Positions 2,494-45,162 of a stretch of DNA of 64,000 nucleotides are shown here, piece after piece. The stretch comes from a virus. Where the stretch lies: the IMG/VR virus record IMGVR_UViG_3300015372_000001, positions 16,738 through 80,737 of that record. One strand, given 5' to 3'. The translations under genes and the position numbers were made by a program. The number at the start of each line of letters is the position of its first letter. Position 1 is the stretch's first letter. The notes under the pieces were generated by a model. It searched no databases. It worked only from the letters and a program-made list of their open reading frames with translations, and was not told where the DNA came from.

Positions 2494-2969
2494 CCACCAG
2501 AGCCAGGCCCTTCGTCGCCGAGGAACGCACCGGGCTGAACTACCTGGCGGTGGAGATCTCCTACGGCTCGAGGTGGGTCAACCTCAACGACGGCGAGGTC
2601 TACAAGATCAGTGCCGACCAGACCCGGGAGACCACCACCAAGACCTGGCGGAAGACGGTGGCCGACTCCCCGGTGCTGGGCGGCAACTACCTGATCCACG
2701 CGGTGCCGGACATGGTGACCGAGACGGTCGGGGTCTGGGTCTACGGCCGCAGCCAGTCCGAGGTGGCCGACAACCTGTTCGGGCTGACCCGGCTGTTCGA
2801 GCAGTACGACTACCGGATCCGGTGGACCACCGATGACTACCGGGAGTACTGGCGCTGCCAGCTGGCCGAGGCGGCGACGAGCCGGGGCCAGGTCTGGACC
2901 CACAGCCAGATGGCGGCCGCGCACTTCACCGTCCCGCGCTACCCGGACGTGACCCGGGAGCGGATCTGA
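2490..2969 (+). CDS. minor tail protein (distal-tail-like)
   Basis: A 159-residue protein that starts at an ATG overlapping the tape measure stop by 4 nt, and stops overlapping the next ATG. It lies directly downstream of the tape measure, where the distal tail protein gene is usually found in siphoviruses. It contains a beta-rich region with an RKTVADSPVLGGNYL stretch and a DNLFGLTRLFEQYDYRIRW stretch. The role is inferred from position and actinophage synteny. A longer in-frame upstream extension (from 1977) exists but is the antisense-like shadow of the tape measure. Confidence 0.8.
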   Translation: MTTRARPFVAEERTGLNYLAVEISYGSRWVNLNDGEVYKISADQTRETTTKTWRKTVADSPVLGGNYLIHAVPDMVTETVGVWVYGRSQSEVADNLFGLTRLFEQYDYRIRWTTDDYREYWRCQLAEAATSRGQVWTHSQMAAAHFTVPRYPDVTRERI

Positions 2970-3427
2970 TGGCGGGCCGCTTGACGATCTGGGGTGCCGG
3001 TGAGCTGCTGACCACCTTCTTCGGCAACCTCGATGCCGCCAAGGACCCGCCATCCGCGTTCTACCTTGCCCTGGTCCGGCTTATCGCTCCCACACCGTAC
3101 ATGTCCGGGGCCGAGCTGGACGAGCCGGACGCCTCGGACTACGCCCGGGTGCGGGTACCCAACGACACGCTGAACTGGGCCAACCCGTCCAGCCCTCAGG
3201 CGATCGCCAACCTGATGGACGTGTCCTTCGTCCCGGCGGTCACCGACTGGGGCGAGTGCCGGTACTGGGCGCTGTGCAACGCATCCACCGAGGGGTTCAA
3301 CTACCTGGTCGGTGATCTGGAGTCCCCGATCCTGGTCGTGGCCGGAGACACCGTGGTGGTCTCCGACGGCGACCTGGGTGTCACCCTGGGCCCGTTCTAC
3401 ATGGCCGACGACGAGGATGACGCCTGA
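2969..3427 (+). CDS. minor tail protein
   Basis: A 152-residue protein, translationally coupled on both sides (1-nt overlaps of stop and ATG). It has no transmembrane segment or signal peptide and an acidic C-terminus (DDEDDA). The sequence resembles small baseplate or tail-tip proteins carried after the distal tail gene in actinophages. No enzymatic motif was seen. The role is inferred from position. Confidence 0.75.
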   Translation: MAGRLTIWGAGELLTTFFGNLDAAKDPPSAFYLALVRLIAPTPYMSGAELDEPDASDYARVRVPNDTLNWANPSSPQAIANLMDVSFVPAVTDWGECRYWALCNASTEGFNYLVGDLESPILVVAGDTVVVSDGDLGVTLGPFYMADDEDDA

Positions 3428-4410
3428 TGGCGACCAAGCAGATGAAGCCCGGCTCGACCGCGATCGTCGCCCGGGCGATCACCAAGGCCGGGGTGGTGCC
3501 GCCGCAGATCCGGGACCTCCCCGGCGGGCTGTACCCGCTGCACTCGGCCGCCTTCGAGATGGACGAGTACCGGATCATGGCGGGCTGGCCGGTGCCGGTG
3601 CCGGCCTACGACATCCGGATCCAGACTCTGATGAGCGCCGACGGCACCGTGATCGCGGACCGGGACTCGCCCACCTCGCTGGTCACTGGGGCCGACTTCC
3701 GGTGGATCGCGGACAACAACTACTGGGACACCACCTCGCTGCGCTGGGCCCCGATCCAGGGTCAGGCCCCGCCGTGGTCGGCGATGCCGGGCACCGAGCC
3801 GACCCTGATCACCAACTACTCCTACACCGTGGCCGACGAGCGGTTCACCGAGATGACCTGCCTGAACTTCGACTCCGACACCGCCGACTACCTGGTCAAC
3901 GACCTGACCCTGACCATGGGCGGGATCCAGGGCTACACCATGATCATGGTGCTCAGCCCGAACTCGGTGTACGGCAACAACGCCGACGTGCCGGCCAACG
4001 GCCTGCTCGGTCCGGCGGAGAACACCGACTCCCCGCCGGGCTGGTTCAGCCTGAAGATCCAGGGCAACTACCTGTGGCTGGACTCCGACGACTCCACCGA
4101 CCAGCGCGGGGTCTCGATCGGGGTCGGTCAGCGGACCAACGCTCCGATGTTCCTCGCGATCGTGCTGGGACGCCCTCAGGCGGTCATGTACGCCGCCTCA
4201 GGGCCTTCCAGCCTGCTGAGCAAGAAGATCCCCACCGGGGATGTCGAACGGGCCCTGAGGGGCGACTTCTGGCTCGGCAAGACCCCACTGACGCCGGCCA
4301 CCGCGGACATGGCGCTGTTCGACTTCGGGATCTACGGCAACATGCTCTCTCCGGCCGCGATCGGGGCCGAGTTCGCGGCGCTGTCCTCGATCTACGGCGG
4401 AGACACATGA
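3427..4410 (+). CDS. minor tail protein with ConA/LamG-like C-terminal half
   Basis: A 327-residue protein. The second half has alternating hydrophobic strands ending in MALFDFGIYGNMLSPAAIG, the pattern of a LamG/concanavalin-like jelly-roll that often binds surface carbohydrate in phage tails. It is coupled to its neighbours through an overlap with the previous stop and an ATGA overlap with the next gene. The fold assignment is by eye. Receptor or tail-tip function is inference. Confidence 0.72.
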   Translation: MATKQMKPGSTAIVARAITKAGVVPPQIRDLPGGLYPLHSAAFEMDEYRIMAGWPVPVPAYDIRIQTLMSADGTVIADRDSPTSLVTGADFRWIADNNYWDTTSLRWAPIQGQAPPWSAMPGTEPTLITNYSYTVADERFTEMTCLNFDSDTADYLVNDLTLTMGGIQGYTMIMVLSPNSVYGNNADVPANGLLGPAENTDSPPGWFSLKIQGNYLWLDSDDSTDQRGVSIGVGQRTNAPMFLAIVLGRPQAVMYAASGPSSLLSKKIPTGDVERALRGDFWLGKTPLTPATADMALFDFGIYGNMLSPAAIGAEFAALSSIYGGDT

Positions 4411-6683
4411 CCACGACCGAGAGCACCACCTTGACCGCGGTGGCCAGCGAGCAGGTGCCGCTGGGCTACTACCGGGTCTTCGCCCAGCCGCCGGGCGGCC
4501 ACCGGCGGGAGATCACCATCTTCCGAGGCGCGCCGGTCCGGCTGATGTCGGCGACCACCCAGGACCCGTTCACCGAGGTCAACGCGCAGATCGCCCTGCC
4601 CCAGGTCACGCTCTTCGACAACCCGGGTTCTGGCGACCTGGACTGGCTGGTGGCCGACTGCGACATCGACATCGAGTTCCAGAACACCGGGGCCTACGAC
4701 TTCAGGTGGTCCTGGGAGGGCTACGTCGCCTCGTTCAGCTACAGCCTGTCCGGGAGCGACTCGCTGGTCACCATCGACCTGAAGGGTGCCTTCTACGGGC
4801 TGGACGACTACCTGGCGATCCCGTCCTTCCCGCGCCGTCCGATCCCGTACGAGATCCTGATCGCCCGGGCCTTCGACCAGACCCTGCACCCCTCCCGGCT
4901 GGGCAGCTTCCGGATGGAGTTCCCGAGGTGGTGGTCGAATCGGGTGCCGGAGTTCAACGACCCCGACTACCTGGTCGCACTGAAGCCGTTCGGGGTGACC
5001 ACCAACCAGCTCTGGACCGGGTTCACCTCCCGCTCCACCGGGACCTGGGAGGTGCTGCTGACCGGGCACGTCCAGTCCCTGCTCAGCGTGATGTACACCG
5101 CCGGCGGAGCGCAGTGGAGCATCCGGAACCGGGGCAAGCGCCGGGGGGAGCTGTACCTGCGGCAGATCCCGGCGGCCACCAGCGACAACATCATCGAGAT
5201 CTACCTGGGCGCGCCCGGGGTGAGCTTCGAGGGCACCCGGGACTACACCCAGCGAGCCGGGGTGATCTACGGCTCCGGCTCGGACGAGGCCGCGATCACC
5301 TTCTCCAACATGCAGGTCACCCCGGACGGGCGGACCACCTACTTCAAGCCGTTCGCCTACTCCGCCCGGCAGTGGCCGCGCAAGGGCAACCCGATGTACG
5401 ACAAGCGGGTCAAGCCCAAGGAGACGATGATCCAGTTCCAGCAGGGGATGGACGAGCTCGCCGCGACCAAGGTGGCCCAGGCCCAGTACCAGCGGTTCGC
5501 CGAGCCCGGGCTCACCGGGTCGATCACCCTGCTCACCGACCCCCGGTACTCCGACGGCTCGCTGTGCCCGCGGCTGATGATCCGGGCCGGGTCCACCATC
5601 CGGCTGAACGGGATGCTCGGGGTCAAGGAGGGAATCCTGGCCCACGTCACCCAGGCGGTGGCGGACTTCCAGTCGCTGAGCGTGTCGCTGACCTACGACA
5701 CCAAGTACCGCGACCAGCTGACCATCGAGGAGGTGCGGGCTCGGACCAGGGACTCCCTGAACCCGGTGCACGCGCTGCAGGTCGGCAAGTACCAGAACAC
5801 CATCAACGATCTGATCATCCCGTGGGACTACAGGGCCGGAAGCGGGATCATCCCGACCCCGGCCAAGGAGTTCTTCGCCCAGAAGCTGCCCTCGAGCGCG
5901 ACCTTCCCGTTCGAGGAGTGGACCCGCAAGCACCCGCCGAAGGACCCGGAGAGCGCGCCGTACTACATCCGGATCGGGCCGACCGACGTGAACAACTCCA
6001 GCAACAACTGGTCCGGGGTGGTCCGGGAGAACAGGATGACCATGGCCATCCCGATCCGGATGGGCCAGGCCGGGACGATCCGGCTCACCCAGCTGGCGGC
6101 GTACGACCGGGACGGCAACGTGATGCCGGTGAAGTTCCACTTCAGCGTCTACTACGGCAACGCCACGGCCGCGGACGGGATGCCGAAGTTCCCGCTGGAC
6201 CCGTACCACAACGCCGACCCGGACCCGGACAAGATCGCCCCGGACTGGCGGCGGCCGCGGAAGCCGGTGACCGCGGAGATCATCCCGACCAACTACAAGA
6301 CCTTCCAGGCCAACCCGTTCTACAAGGGAGCCTGGGAGCAGGTGCAGGAGGACGGCACCGTGTTCCCCTGGTCCGCCGACTCCAACCTGCCCACTCCCGG
6401 CTCGGGGCTGGTGGTCGGCTGGGGCAACTACTACGAGCCGGCCGGGTACTCCCCGGGCCGGGCCAGCAAGGGAGCCGCACGGACCGGACTGCTCCAGGAC
6501 GACACGGCCTGGACCTGGGACGTGGCCCAGACCCAGAACATCGACTTCCAGAACCCTGAGAACAACGTGAACGAGCAGTACATCGGGATGCTCTTCGTCC
6601 AGATCTACTGCGACGACCAGGACGACAAGGCGGTCTTCTTCATGGGCCGGCTGATCCGTAGCGATCCCGGGCAGACCAACTAG
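4407..6683 (+). CDS. large minor tail protein (tail hub-like)
   Basis: A 758-residue protein starting at ATG 4407 in an ATGA overlap. The frame is open further upstream (to 3312), but that part shadows the preceding gene. It sits two genes after the distal-tail-like protein, where siphoviruses encode the large baseplate hub or tail-associated protein. It is rich in Trp and Tyr, with no membrane segment. Hub or minor tail role is inferred from size and position; no peptidase motif was recognised. Confidence 0.75.
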   Translation: MTTTESTTLTAVASEQVPLGYYRVFAQPPGGHRREITIFRGAPVRLMSATTQDPFTEVNAQIALPQVTLFDNPGSGDLDWLVADCDIDIEFQNTGAYDFRWSWEGYVASFSYSLSGSDSLVTIDLKGAFYGLDDYLAIPSFPRRPIPYEILIARAFDQTLHPSRLGSFRMEFPRWWSNRVPEFNDPDYLVALKPFGVTTNQLWTGFTSRSTGTWEVLLTGHVQSLLSVMYTAGGAQWSIRNRGKRRGELYLRQIPAATSDNIIEIYLGAPGVSFEGTRDYTQRAGVIYGSGSDEAAITFSNMQVTPDGRTTYFKPFAYSARQWPRKGNPMYDKRVKPKETMIQFQQGMDELAATKVAQAQYQRFAEPGLTGSITLLTDPRYSDGSLCPRLMIRAGSTIRLNGMLGVKEGILAHVTQAVADFQSLSVSLTYDTKYRDQLTIEEVRARTRDSLNPVHALQVGKYQNTINDLIIPWDYRAGSGIIPTPAKEFFAQKLPSSATFPFEEWTRKHPPKDPESAPYYIRIGPTDVNNSSNNWSGVVRENRMTMAIPIRMGQAGTIRLTQLAAYDRDGNVMPVKFHFSVYYGNATAADGMPKFPLDPYHNADPDPDKIAPDWRRPRKPVTAEIIPTNYKTFQANPFYKGAWEQVQEDGTVFPWSADSNLPTPGSGLVVGWGNYYEPAGYSPGRASKGAARTGLLQDDTAWTWDVAQTQNIDFQNPENNVNEQYIGMLFVQIYCDDQDDKAVFFMGRLIRSDPGQTN

Positions 6684-17945: not shown

Positions 17946-18292
17946 GCCGGCTCATCTCCTTCCGGGAGCGGGCTCTCGATCGAGATGACGCGAGGCAGTG
18001 GTTCCGGTCCGACATAGCGCAGACACCGGCAGGTGGTGAGCACCTGCCGGGTGCCCAGCTTGGTCTTCTTGAAGAAGGCGACGGTGTAGTGACAGCCGTC
18101 GTCGTCGCTGTGGAACGAGTAGTGGTGCGTGCACCCACAGGTCGGGTCCGGATCGGTGAGGACCCGGACCCGACGCTGCAGCCGAATGTTCGCCTGGTGG
18201 TAGGTCTCACCCCAGCCGAGGGTGAGGAACCAGCCGATGGCCAGCACCACGTTGCAGGTCAGGCTGACCCACAGCAGGTGCTGTGCGGTCAT
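17942..18292 (-). CDS. single-pass membrane protein with Cys/His domain
   Basis: 116 residues. One transmembrane segment at residues 4-27 (LLWVSLTCNVVLAIGWFLTL), then CGCTHHYSFHSDDDGC and CRCLRY. The latter matches a Cys/His-rich actinophage family that probably binds a metal. Confidence 0.7.
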   Translation of the reverse strand: MTAQHLLWVSLTCNVVLAIGWFLTLGWGETYHQANIRLQRRVRVLTDPDPTCGCTHHYSFHSDDDGCHYTVAFFKKTKLGTRQVLTTCRCLRYVGPEPLPRVISIESPLPEGDEPA

Positions 18293-18561
18293 CTGACGAT
18301 CGCCGTCTCACGATCGAGGATCTCGTACCGGGAGTAGCCGTTCTCCGGATCGCCGATGATCCGCTGCACCTCCGACAGCACCAGCTGGTCGAGCTGGATG
18401 TGGGTGTGCACCTCCGTGGAGGGCCCGTTGTCGGGGCTCTGGGCGGGCGTACGGCGCTTCCGGGGAGTCGGTTGGACCTCTCCCCTGGCCACGGCCTGAA
18501 CGGCCTTCTCGTGGAGGCTGGCGGTCTCGGGGAGGGGCACGCCCTTCTTGGTCTCAGTCAT
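18289..18561 (-). CDS. hypothetical protein
   Basis: 90 residues from ATG 18561 behind GGAGG. Overlaps the upstream gene by 8 nt. A disordered Pro/Arg-rich centre is followed by VHTHIQLDQLVLSEVQRI. No family recognised. Confidence 0.62.
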   Translation of the reverse strand: MTETKKGVPLPETASLHEKAVQAVARGEVQPTPRKRRTPAQSPDNGPSTEVHTHIQLDQLVLSEVQRIIGDPENGYSRYEILDRETAIVR

Positions 18562-41661: not shown

Positions 41662-42146
41662 TGGGCACCAAGCGGGCCAGGAGCCAGCGCTGGATGGAGG
41701 GTGCGGAGGTGGCGCGGGTCGGGACCGCAGGCCATCAGGCGATGTACCAGATGGAGCGGTTGATCCAGGGTCAGCACCCGGAGAAGAACCCGATCAGGCA
41801 GCTGGTGCTGATGAAGAAGTACGGCCGCAGTCTGATGGAGCTGGTCTTCATGATGACCAAGGTGCAGAAGGTGATGCGCGAGCAGATGATGATGGACACG
41901 CCGAACCAGGGTCTGCCCTGGACCGAGCAGGAGGATGAGCTGGTGGTTCGGGACCGGGCCGAGGGGATGGAGATCCACGAGATCGCCCGGTCCTTGGGCA
42001 GGACGCCGGCCGCGATCGCGACCAGGCTGAGCGTGCTGATCGGAGTGCCGAGGTCGGAGATCGTGACCGCCTACATCGACGGCACGGTGGACACCGAGCG
42101 GGTGCGTGGGATCTTCCACGGTGTGGCCAAGCGGGTGGCGGGGTGA
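41661..42146 (+). CDS. SANT/Myb-like helix-turn-helix protein
   Basis: 161 residues from ATG 41661 (TGATG overlap). Residues about 85-130 (PWTEQEDELVVRDRAEGM, EIARSLGRTPAAIATRL) match a SANT/Myb-type DNA-binding motif. N-terminus is Met/Gln-rich helical. Probable DNA-binding protein. Confidence 0.7.
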   Translation: MGTKRARSQRWMEGAEVARVGTAGHQAMYQMERLIQGQHPEKNPIRQLVLMKKYGRSLMELVFMMTKVQKVMREQMMMDTPNQGLPWTEQEDELVVRDRAEGMEIHEIARSLGRTPAAIATRLSVLIGVPRSEIVTAYIDGTVDTERVRGIFHGVAKRVAG

Positions 42147-43137: not shown

Positions 43138-43728
43138 ATGGCCAAGGTGCGGGCTCACTGGGCGGCGATCGGGGACTCGCTGACCTTCGGCTGGGGCTCC
43201 ACCGACCCCGCCACCAAGGCGTACCCGGTGATCGCGGGGCTGCCCAGGATCGGCAAGCCGGGGCAGTGCCTGACCATCCCAGGCCCCTGGCCGGCGCTGA
43301 TCGACACCTTCGCCAACGAGGTGAACAACCTGAAGGCCGACTTCGGGGTGAACGCGATCGTGGTGGAGATCGGGCTGAACGACCTGCGGCGCAGGGACAA
43401 GCTCTACGACGACATGCTGGCCGGGTACCAGCACCTGGCGAAGGTGGGGGACAACCACCATGTGAAGGTGGTGTTCTCCACGATCACGCCCTGGGGAGCA
43501 GGCAGCACCACGGCGACAGCGCTCAAGCAGCAGAACCGGGCTCAGCTCAACCACTGGGTGCGGACCACGGTGGGGTTCGTGGAGTACGCGATCCCGATGG
43601 GCAACGCCACGTTGAGGCCCGAGTTCGACAGCGGCGACCACACCCATCCCAGTGATGCCGGGCATGCCCGGATGGGCGGGGTGCTGGCTGCCTACGCGGC
43701 CCTGCACCAGGAGATCAAGAAGCCCTGA
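43138..43728 (+). CDS. SGNH/GDSL hydrolase
   Basis: 196 residues. Block I IGDSLTFGWG (nucleophile Ser14), GLNDLR in block III and DHTHPSDAGH with the catalytic Asp/His in block V are intact. SGNH enzymes cleave esters on carbohydrates, lipids or peptidoglycan. No signal peptide, so it acts in the cytoplasm or is carried by virions. It sits between two EEP-fold genes and a regulator. Confidence 0.87.
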   Translation: MAKVRAHWAAIGDSLTFGWGSTDPATKAYPVIAGLPRIGKPGQCLTIPGPWPALIDTFANEVNNLKADFGVNAIVVEIGLNDLRRRDKLYDDMLAGYQHLAKVGDNHHVKVVFSTITPWGAGSTTATALKQQNRAQLNHWVRTTVGFVEYAIPMGNATLRPEFDSGDHTHPSDAGHARMGGVLAAYAALHQEIKKP

Positions 43729-43731
43729 TAG

Positions 43732-43822
43732 CGTCAGACGTTTGCTGATAACGTCTGACGTTATGGCGAGAAAACCCCTGGATACGTCAGACGAAACCCT
43801 CCGACTGACCATTCGTCTGACG
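43732..43822. promoter_or_regulatory. four-copy operator array of the RHH gene
   Basis: CGTCAGACG at 43732-43740 and 43785-43793; its reverse complement CGTCTGACG at 43752-43760 and 43814-43822. The first pair brackets a possible -10 (TAACGT, 43749-43754) before ATG 43763. The second pair lies inside the first 20 codons. Autoregulation is inferred. Confidence 0.75.
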
Positions 43823-44098
43823 AAACAGCAACTGGCGCTGTTGGACTCCCAGCGTGGAGGCGCGTCCCGGAGTTCCTACGTGCGCGAGCTGATCGAGCAC
43901 GGGATGGCGCAGAAGACCCTGCGTGACATTCCGCCCATGCAACCGACCCGAGTCGGGGAGCGGATGATCGTGGTCGAGCCCTTGGAACCGGTGCGGGAGC
44001 ATCTGCACCGGTACATCAAGGGCGACGAAGCTGGGTACGTCCGTGGCACCAAGGTCTACCTCTACACCTGCGAGTGCGGGGAGACCGAGGTTCGATGA
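43763..44098 (+). CDS. ribbon-helix-helix DNA-binding protein
   Basis: 111 residues from ATG 43763, with no Shine-Dalgarno sequence. LRLTIRLTKQQLALLDSQRG and SYVRELIEHGM give the beta-strand/helix/helix pattern of RHH repressors (residues about 13-48). The C-terminal part with CECGE may bind metal. The operator-like array upstream and within its own codons points to self-repression, perhaps also control of neighbouring genes. Confidence 0.8.
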   Translation: MARKPLDTSDETLRLTIRLTKQQLALLDSQRGGASRSSYVRELIEHGMAQKTLRDIPPMQPTRVGERMIVVEPLEPVREHLHRYIKGDEAGYVRGTKVYLYTCECGETEVR

Positions 44099-44208: not shown

Positions 44209-45162
44209 GTGTCAGGCCATGCGTCCTTCACTCACATCCACTGCTCCTCGCGGTTCGACCGGAGTGCGGCTGCGCTCGAGGTAGACCTCGACCGGTGGAT
44301 GGAGAACAGCTCGCTGATCACCCTGACCGAGGTGGCGTCATCAGACCGGGCCTCAAAGCTGCGAGAGCAGGGCTGGGGTCACTTCGTGGCCTCGGAGGGC
44401 GGCCGCTCCGACGATGCCGCGATCGCCTGGGAGAAGAAGACCTGGCGTGACCAGGAGCACTGGGCCAAGAAGCTGCACGGCAGCTTCGGCAGCGGGGCGT
44501 TGCTGGTCTCGGGGCTGTGGTGCTCCGATGTCCTGCTCAAGCACGTCGGAACCGGGCAGACCCTGATCGTCAGCGTCTCCCACATGCCCGCGCATGTGAA
44601 CGGGACCGAGGGGTTCTCCAACATCCGCAACGAGCCGGCCGCGATCTGGGCTGCCCGCAAGCAGGCCTACCAGCAGGGGATGGACCAGTGGTCCACCCAT
44701 GTCCAGGACATCTGCCGGCGGAAGAAGCCGGATGCGCTGATGGTGGTGGGCGACTTCAACGTCAACCTCAAGGACGACTGGTTCCGGGCCTACATGAAGC
44801 AGCACTGGAAGCCGCTGGACCTGACCTTGGCCTGGAAGCACTTCCCGACCGAGGGCGGAACCCTGGGTGGGAACCGGATCATCGACGGCACCTACTACCA
44901 CGGGATGTCCACCGATGGCGCGGTCCTGCAGCCGCGGGTGAACAGTAGCGACCACCGCCCCTACAAGGAGTCCTTCGCCCTGGGCGCGACCGAGCCGGTC
45001 GAGTTCTACGACCCGGCCACCGGCCACATCGGTCCGGGCGTGGAGTGGTGGGGCTTCGGCGACTACGCCTACGACGAGATGTTCGAGAAGCAGACCGTCG
45101 ATGACGACGGGAACGTGGTCGTGTCCTTCGACTTCTCCGGCCTCGACCCGAACTTCTTCTAA
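44209..45162 (+). CDS. endonuclease/exonuclease/phosphatase-fold protein (copy 2)
   Basis: 317 residues if it starts at GTG 44209; GTG 44185 is possible. LITLTEVASSD holds the metal-binding Glu; VSVSHMPAHV, VVGDFNVNLKDDW and a C-terminal SSDHRPYKESF complete the EEP (DNase I-like) active site. Similar in plan to 42369-43121 but longer at the C-terminus. Substrate unknown. Confidence 0.82.
   Translation: MSGHASFTHIHCSSRFDRSAAALEVDLDRWMENSSLITLTEVASSDRASKLREQGWGHFVASEGGRSDDAAIAWEKKTWRDQEHWAKKLHGSFGSGALLVSGLWCSDVLLKHVGTGQTLIVSVSHMPAHVNGTEGFSNIRNEPAAIWAARKQAYQQGMDQWSTHVQDICRRKKPDALMVVGDFNVNLKDDWFRAYMKQHWKPLDLTLAWKHFPTEGGTLGGNRIIDGTYYHGMSTDGAVLQPRVNSSDHRPYKESFALGATEPVEFYDPATGHIGPGVEWWGFGDYAYDEMFEKQTVDDDGNVVVSFDFSGLDPNFF

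Follow-up and report, generated by a model that had tools for sequence, protein, structure and literature searches.

A palindromic array spanning the start of a phage ribbon-helix-helix-like gene and the codons of its DNA-binding domain

Introduction

Why should palindromic words that lie over the promoter of a regulator gene recur in the codons of that regulator's own DNA-binding domain? The question is raised by a ribbon-helix-helix (RHH)-like gene in a 64,000-nucleotide stretch of viral DNA (the window), with four exact CGTCWGACG words falling within 91 bp and spanning the gene start (Table 1). The window is part of an 80,737-base virus record (G000) that carries a WhiB gene and has a high third-position GC, which suggests a phage of actinobacteria. 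The original prediction for this locus, made from the window alone, was of an operator array embedded in its own repressor gene and tightly autorepressing a leaderless mRNA. Here we compare the locus with its relatives in other viral records, and consider which explanations of the in-gene words are consistent with the observed distribution of sites.

Results

The sequence CGTCAGACG reads CGTC-A-GACG, two palindromic halves around one central base, which alone sets its orientation; CGTCTGACG differs from it only at that base. The array therefore consists of four palindromic sites. The original prediction had described two inverted pairs of a 9-mer, one over the promoter and the other within codons 8–20; the four 9-mers are located as described, but since each is itself a palindrome there are no inverted pairs. 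An exact-match search of the 80,737-base record revealed no further CGTCWGACG copies outside the array, in agreement with the original remark that the 9-mer was not noticed elsewhere in the window, and the word is thus not common across the genome, with a phage-wide regulon being rejected on the same result.

Under a Markov-1 model the whole record should contain 2.1 exact sites, with a rough probability of about 4e-9 for four falling in 91 bp, and chance clustering of 9-mers is rejected. Dinucleotide shuffles of the window contained a mean of 1.73 copies and reached 4 copies in 8/100; the array is thus unusual by its clustering and not by its copy number. One-mismatch words number 11 elsewhere in the record and show no excess, with a reversed-pattern control yielding 18 against 15 in all. 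The pair near window 18290–18312 falls at a junction between genes and seems to be a coincidence.

Table 1. Features in and downstream of the array (window positions; distances are from the ATG of the RHH-like gene)
Feature	Position	Strand	Remarks
Palindromic site 1, CGTCAGACG	43732..43740	.	centre -27; upstream, -35 region
TAACGT, -10-like TANNNT box	43749..43754	+	8 nt before ATG; overlaps site 2; putative promoter element
Palindromic site 2, CGTCTGACG	43752..43760	.	centre -7; overlaps -10 box, reaches 2 nt before ATG
RHH-like regulator gene	43763..44098	+	111 aa plus stop; N-terminal RHH-like domain
Palindromic site 3, CGTCAGACG	43785..43793	.	codons 8-11 (T-S-D-E), centre +27
Predicted DNA-reading beta-strand, codons 12-19 (TLRLTIRL)	43796..43819	+	from alignments; strand by analogy with NikR-type RHH
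Two-mismatch word, CGACTGACC	43802..43810	.	place of better site in L018, L026 and L028 (centre +44)
Palindromic site 4, CGTCTGACG	43814..43822	.	codons 18-20 (R-L-T), centre +56
Small single-TM-like peptide gene, 30 aa	44109..44201	+	next gene downstream of RHH gene
EEP2, endonuclease/exonuclease/phosphatase-like	44227..45162	+	conserved neighbour; start approximate

The window protein is likely of the ribbon-helix-helix type. Its predicted N-terminal strand, which has an R-x-T pattern and precedes two helices, resembles the arrangement in the RHH proteins NikR, CopG, and MetJ. It scores 13.9 bits against Pfam RHH_1, below the cut-off of 20.5, and the 7 sequences returned by a profile search of the PDB are all NikR-type chains, which match weakly (E 0.0098 at best) and span just the RHH part of the protein. 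The structure model contains helices 21–31 and 36–49 with high confidence and a strand that is not formed in the monomer, and a structure search (Foldseek) gave no RHH fold among the 50 matches listed of 408. The C-terminal part is strand-rich and contains CECGE.

Relatives of the window gene (class 1) comprise two copies of the window's own phage (L003 and L004, with 0 and 1 differences over the compared stretch) and the divergent loci L018, L026, and L028, class 1 homologues being 31–45% identical to the window protein. L026 and L028 came from a protein search in which the window and L018 sequences served as queries; L018 was found via the 9-mer pattern itself, and its promoter and codon sites are therefore not an independent test. 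Each divergent relative carries five sites (≤1 mismatch) in a layout similar to that of the window, with centres at -23, -6, +27, +44, and +68 from the ATG in L018, -29, -6, +27, +44, and +68 in L026, and -25, -6, +30, +47, and +71 in L028. Being 95% identical in DNA over 150 nt from the start onwards, L018 and L028 represent roughly a single lineage. The CGACTGACC word of the window may be a remnant or a weak site. The L018 record holds one further exact 9-mer copy beyond its own RHH gene.

Scanning viral sequences for the 9-mer pair returned 18 stretches, with an RHH gene of this kind only in L012, L013, and L018, and of the 5 stretches returned by a promoter-pattern scan, 4 had been found before and the fifth is AT-rich and matches by chance. 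The last viral scan found nothing beyond the phages already known. Close-set CGTCWGACG-like words were also seen near 1741–1805 of L010 and near 460–517 of L020, both contigs without this RHH gene. In L026 (3304–4001) a divergently oriented ORF starts near 3954, such that the class 1 array in that record may also cover a second promoter.

The in-gene words coincide with the conserved SDET and RLT residues. Synonymous recoding of codons 2–26 with same-locus codon usage reached the observed exact sites in 0/20,000 trials for both the window (two sites) and L018 (three sites), and in 0.4% and 0.06% of trials for L026 and L028 respectively; for the 7-mer core the values are 1% (window), 0.005% (L018), 0.01% (L026), and 0.28% (L028), with window recodings containing a mean of 0.2 GTCWGAC each. 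Protein constraint alone as the source of the in-gene sites is rejected for class 1 on these results. At the +68 site, L018 has CGT CTG ACG (R-L-T, CGTCTGACG) and L026 has CGT CAG ACG (R-Q-T, CGTCAGACG), the palindrome being retained and the amino acid altered. Synonymous-site conservation of codons 8–20 had been proposed as a check on the prediction, and the recoding test, over codons 2–26, supports selection on the DNA. The array is real, selected, and operator-like.

Further RHH genes were sought beside the conserved neighbours EEP2 (17 loci) and EEP1 (23 loci). A second class, consisting of L037, L068, and L061 and found through a neighbour gene, has its palindromes arranged as in class 1 but with another word, GTGATATCAC, whose upstream copies lie near -37, -22, and -6 (two of them in L061), together with an in-gene word, TGATATCA, at +9 inside codons 2–5. 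Given the protein, the probability of the in-gene word is 0.035 in L037, 0.023 in L061, and 0.092 in L068, where it is by itself not significant (P=0.09). With ≤1 mismatch, GTGATATCAC is confined in these records to the array except for one one-mismatch word each in the L068 and L072 records. A scan for GTGATATCAC returned 24 stretches, with L072, L073, L082, and L091 belonging to the three known class 2 phages and the remaining 20/24 lacking an RHH frame of this kind where the word occurs.

L055 has four GGTACCAC-containing palindromes at 3884–3932, ahead of a different RHH-like gene that starts at 3953; no GGTACCAC words are present in the codons, this array being upstream only. No RHH gene was found beside EEP2 in L031–L034 and L044 (L031 and L044 also by profile), nor by profile at 12 further EEP1 loci (L057–L060, L062–L067, L069, L070). 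Dense GTGTCTAC/GTAGACAC words lie at 228–462 of L057 (also in L058 and L059), upstream of a gene (MSQNEKARYYQALKAAG...).

Sharing of words between promoter and codons was scored as words of the 60-bp upstream region recurring in the first 26 codons beyond the recoding expectation. By longest word (p<0.05), 8/14 RHH genes, which are related to each other, show sharing compared with 0/26 other genes, whose starts were hand-chosen from ORF lists and are in some cases maybe untrue, the terminase entry in particular. Sharing by coverage is likewise seen in 8/14 RHH genes, a partly different set, and collapsing sister loci leaves 6/11 vs 0/26 (Fisher 0.0002). The longest-word test is failed by L035a, L036, L041, L040, L039, and L055 (6/14). 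L035b, the second RHH-like frame of L035, is not significant on recoding and was left out of the promoter and word-sharing counts. Part of the sharing in L043 stems from a tandem duplication of the 5' end of its RHH gene; the extra copy lies at 6060–6160, just upstream of the gene, and stops after 11 codons.

The placement of the array over a TAACGT box holds as originally described, as does the lack of a Shine-Dalgarno-like word before the ATG of the window RHH gene. Throughout class 1 a TARCGT box runs into the -6/-7 site and ends 7–8 nt before the ATG, so that bound protein would cover the -10 element. A TANNNT ending 6–8 nt before the ATG is present in 11/14 RHH genes compared with 3/18 other starts, and a Shine-Dalgarno-like word in 0/14 compared with 8/18, these 18 control starts being hand-picked and one of them (L026_EEP2) off its start codon. 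The TANNNT spacing is found in 0/3 class 2 genes, and a sigma-70 consensus scan found no promoter. The spacing of the box and the missing Shine-Dalgarno-like word fit a probably leaderless transcript of the RHH gene. If the mRNA has no leader, sites placed beyond the start can only fall in codons, and as the DNA-binding domain is N-terminal, the codons holding such sites are the DNA-reading ones; no special mechanism is then needed to account for the embedding.

Comparison of L028 and L036 reveals 91.4% identity up to L028:2768, with the first site beginning at 2771, and identity resumes, at 98.6%, from position 2976 within the RHH gene. The two differ in the promoter and the DNA-binding half and have the C-terminal part in common. 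L028 and L035 are 96.8% and 99.1% identical in the regions flanking 2767–3107. The L028/L036 pattern appears to be what a joint swap of the sites and the reading domain would leave. L035 and L036 have a common DNA-binding domain and different promoters, and this pair, together with the 6/14 genes without significant word sharing, argues against strict coupling. The second RHH-like frame carried by L035 may be relevant to its mismatch of domain and promoter.

The RHH protein has no match in named phages or plasmids, and EEP2 none in named phages, with terminase similarity of 26% at best. No chromosomal relatives were confirmed, and none of EEP1 in an 84,980-species genome collection. Neither of the marks of a prophage immunity repressor, an integrase and sites at other phage promoters, was found, with a Phage_integrase or Resolvase match in 0/4 records, which may be fragments. 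A toxin partner gene was not identified beside the window RHH gene; a peptide similar to the TM-like one of the window lies downstream of EEP2 in L018, not adjoining the RHH gene. Between EEP1 and the RHH gene, the window has a GDSL/SGNH-like hydrolase gene (43138–43728) that is absent there in L018.

Discussion

From the arrangement of sites and genes, we consider it probable that the array is the autorepressor's own operator, straddling a start that is probably leaderless and forming part of a portable specificity cassette, with autorepression as the most likely function. RHH dimers would bind the 9-bp palindromes CGTCWGACG, probably cooperatively, and would cover the -35/-10 region and continue past the start into the first 20 or so codons, presumably because the mRNA has no leader. 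Binding would shut off the RHH gene's own promoter and probably the co-directional downstream genes too. The codons concerned would be doubly constrained, encoding the DNA-reading segment and having to stay an operator, and the promoter array and the DNA-binding half would form one specificity cassette, exchangeable among phages.

Other regulators frequently act on phage genes, and the sites could belong to a different host or phage protein, e.g. the HTH protein at 42143, with the RHH gene merely the target. We regard this as unlikely, as the word tracks the RHH class, with CGTCWGACG at 4/4 class 1 loci and GTGATATCAC at 3/3 class 2 loci, and outside the RHH gene there is no exact site in the window's record and almost none in the other records. 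Furthermore, L036, which is similar to L028 outside the replaced segment, is without the word where its RHH half differs.

Still less likely is that the in-gene copies are RNA elements, with the palindromic words pairing into an early-coding hairpin that controls translation or elongation. Folding of the first 90 nt is indeed strong, with z -2.71 in the window, -2.50 in L018, and -3.31 in L028, but hairpins would be expected in any case, since one copy of a palindrome is always able to pair with another. In addition, the fold is weak in L026 (z -1.26) and lacking in class 2 L037 (z +0.66), the sites that pair are not the same from phage to phage (codons 8/18, 8/14, and 14/22), and two copies sit upstream of the putative start.

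That the in-gene copies are a by-product of the protein sequence (SDET, RLT) and codon usage is very improbable, and for class 1 already disfavoured, since even with the chance rate raised by the position of the words on conserved residues (the mean of 0.2 GTCWGAC per window recoding), it is opposed by the synonymous recoding tests, the 0/26 control genes, and the change of R-L-T to R-Q-T with the palindrome kept.

The autorepressor operator proposed for the RHH gene has partial counterparts in known systems. Heteroimmune exchange of repressor and operator, in which specificity and sites change together, occurs in lambdoid phages and Cluster A mycobacteriophages. In contrast to these exchanges, the sites described here seem not to extend beyond the gene of the repressor itself, and the replaced unit, about 0.2 kb long, ends within that gene.

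MazE6, an RHH antitoxin of Mycobacterium tuberculosis, binds an operator that takes in the -10 element (TANNNT) of the antitoxin's promoter, an arrangement also proposed here, although in the part of that study concerned it is an 18-bp operator at the -10 region, upstream of the gene, with no multi-site array in codons (PMC9477884). Omega and PaaR-type RHH repressors act at their own promoters, with Omega binding cooperatively, but the passage on these proteins describes no operators inside their own DNA-binding codons, unlike those proposed for the window gene (PMC3874152). The cI and cro genes of phage PY54 are, in the section describing them, regulators with leaderless mRNA beside an operator; these encode Cro/CI proteins and not RHH proteins, and it is suggested that Cro is not autorepressing (PMC4488713). 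In the portions of the open-access full-text literature covered, we recognised no report of an RHH protein with operators in the codons for its own DNA-binding domain.

The module would be a variant among autoregulated repressors, the unusual part being the coupling of site and reader. More tentatively, and with somewhat less confidence than doubt, these genes may represent a regulator family in which the DNA encoding the reading strand is part of the operator, such that specificity and target travel, recombine, and evolve together, with class-specific words that may comprise CGTCWGACG, GTGATATCAC, and possibly GTGGTACCAC. If true, one stretch of DNA would hold both the specificity determinant and its target, which would explain how phage regulators could switch specificity without losing their sites. 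Such loci would also provide natural matched pairs of RHH protein and operator, from which the RHH recognition code could be read.
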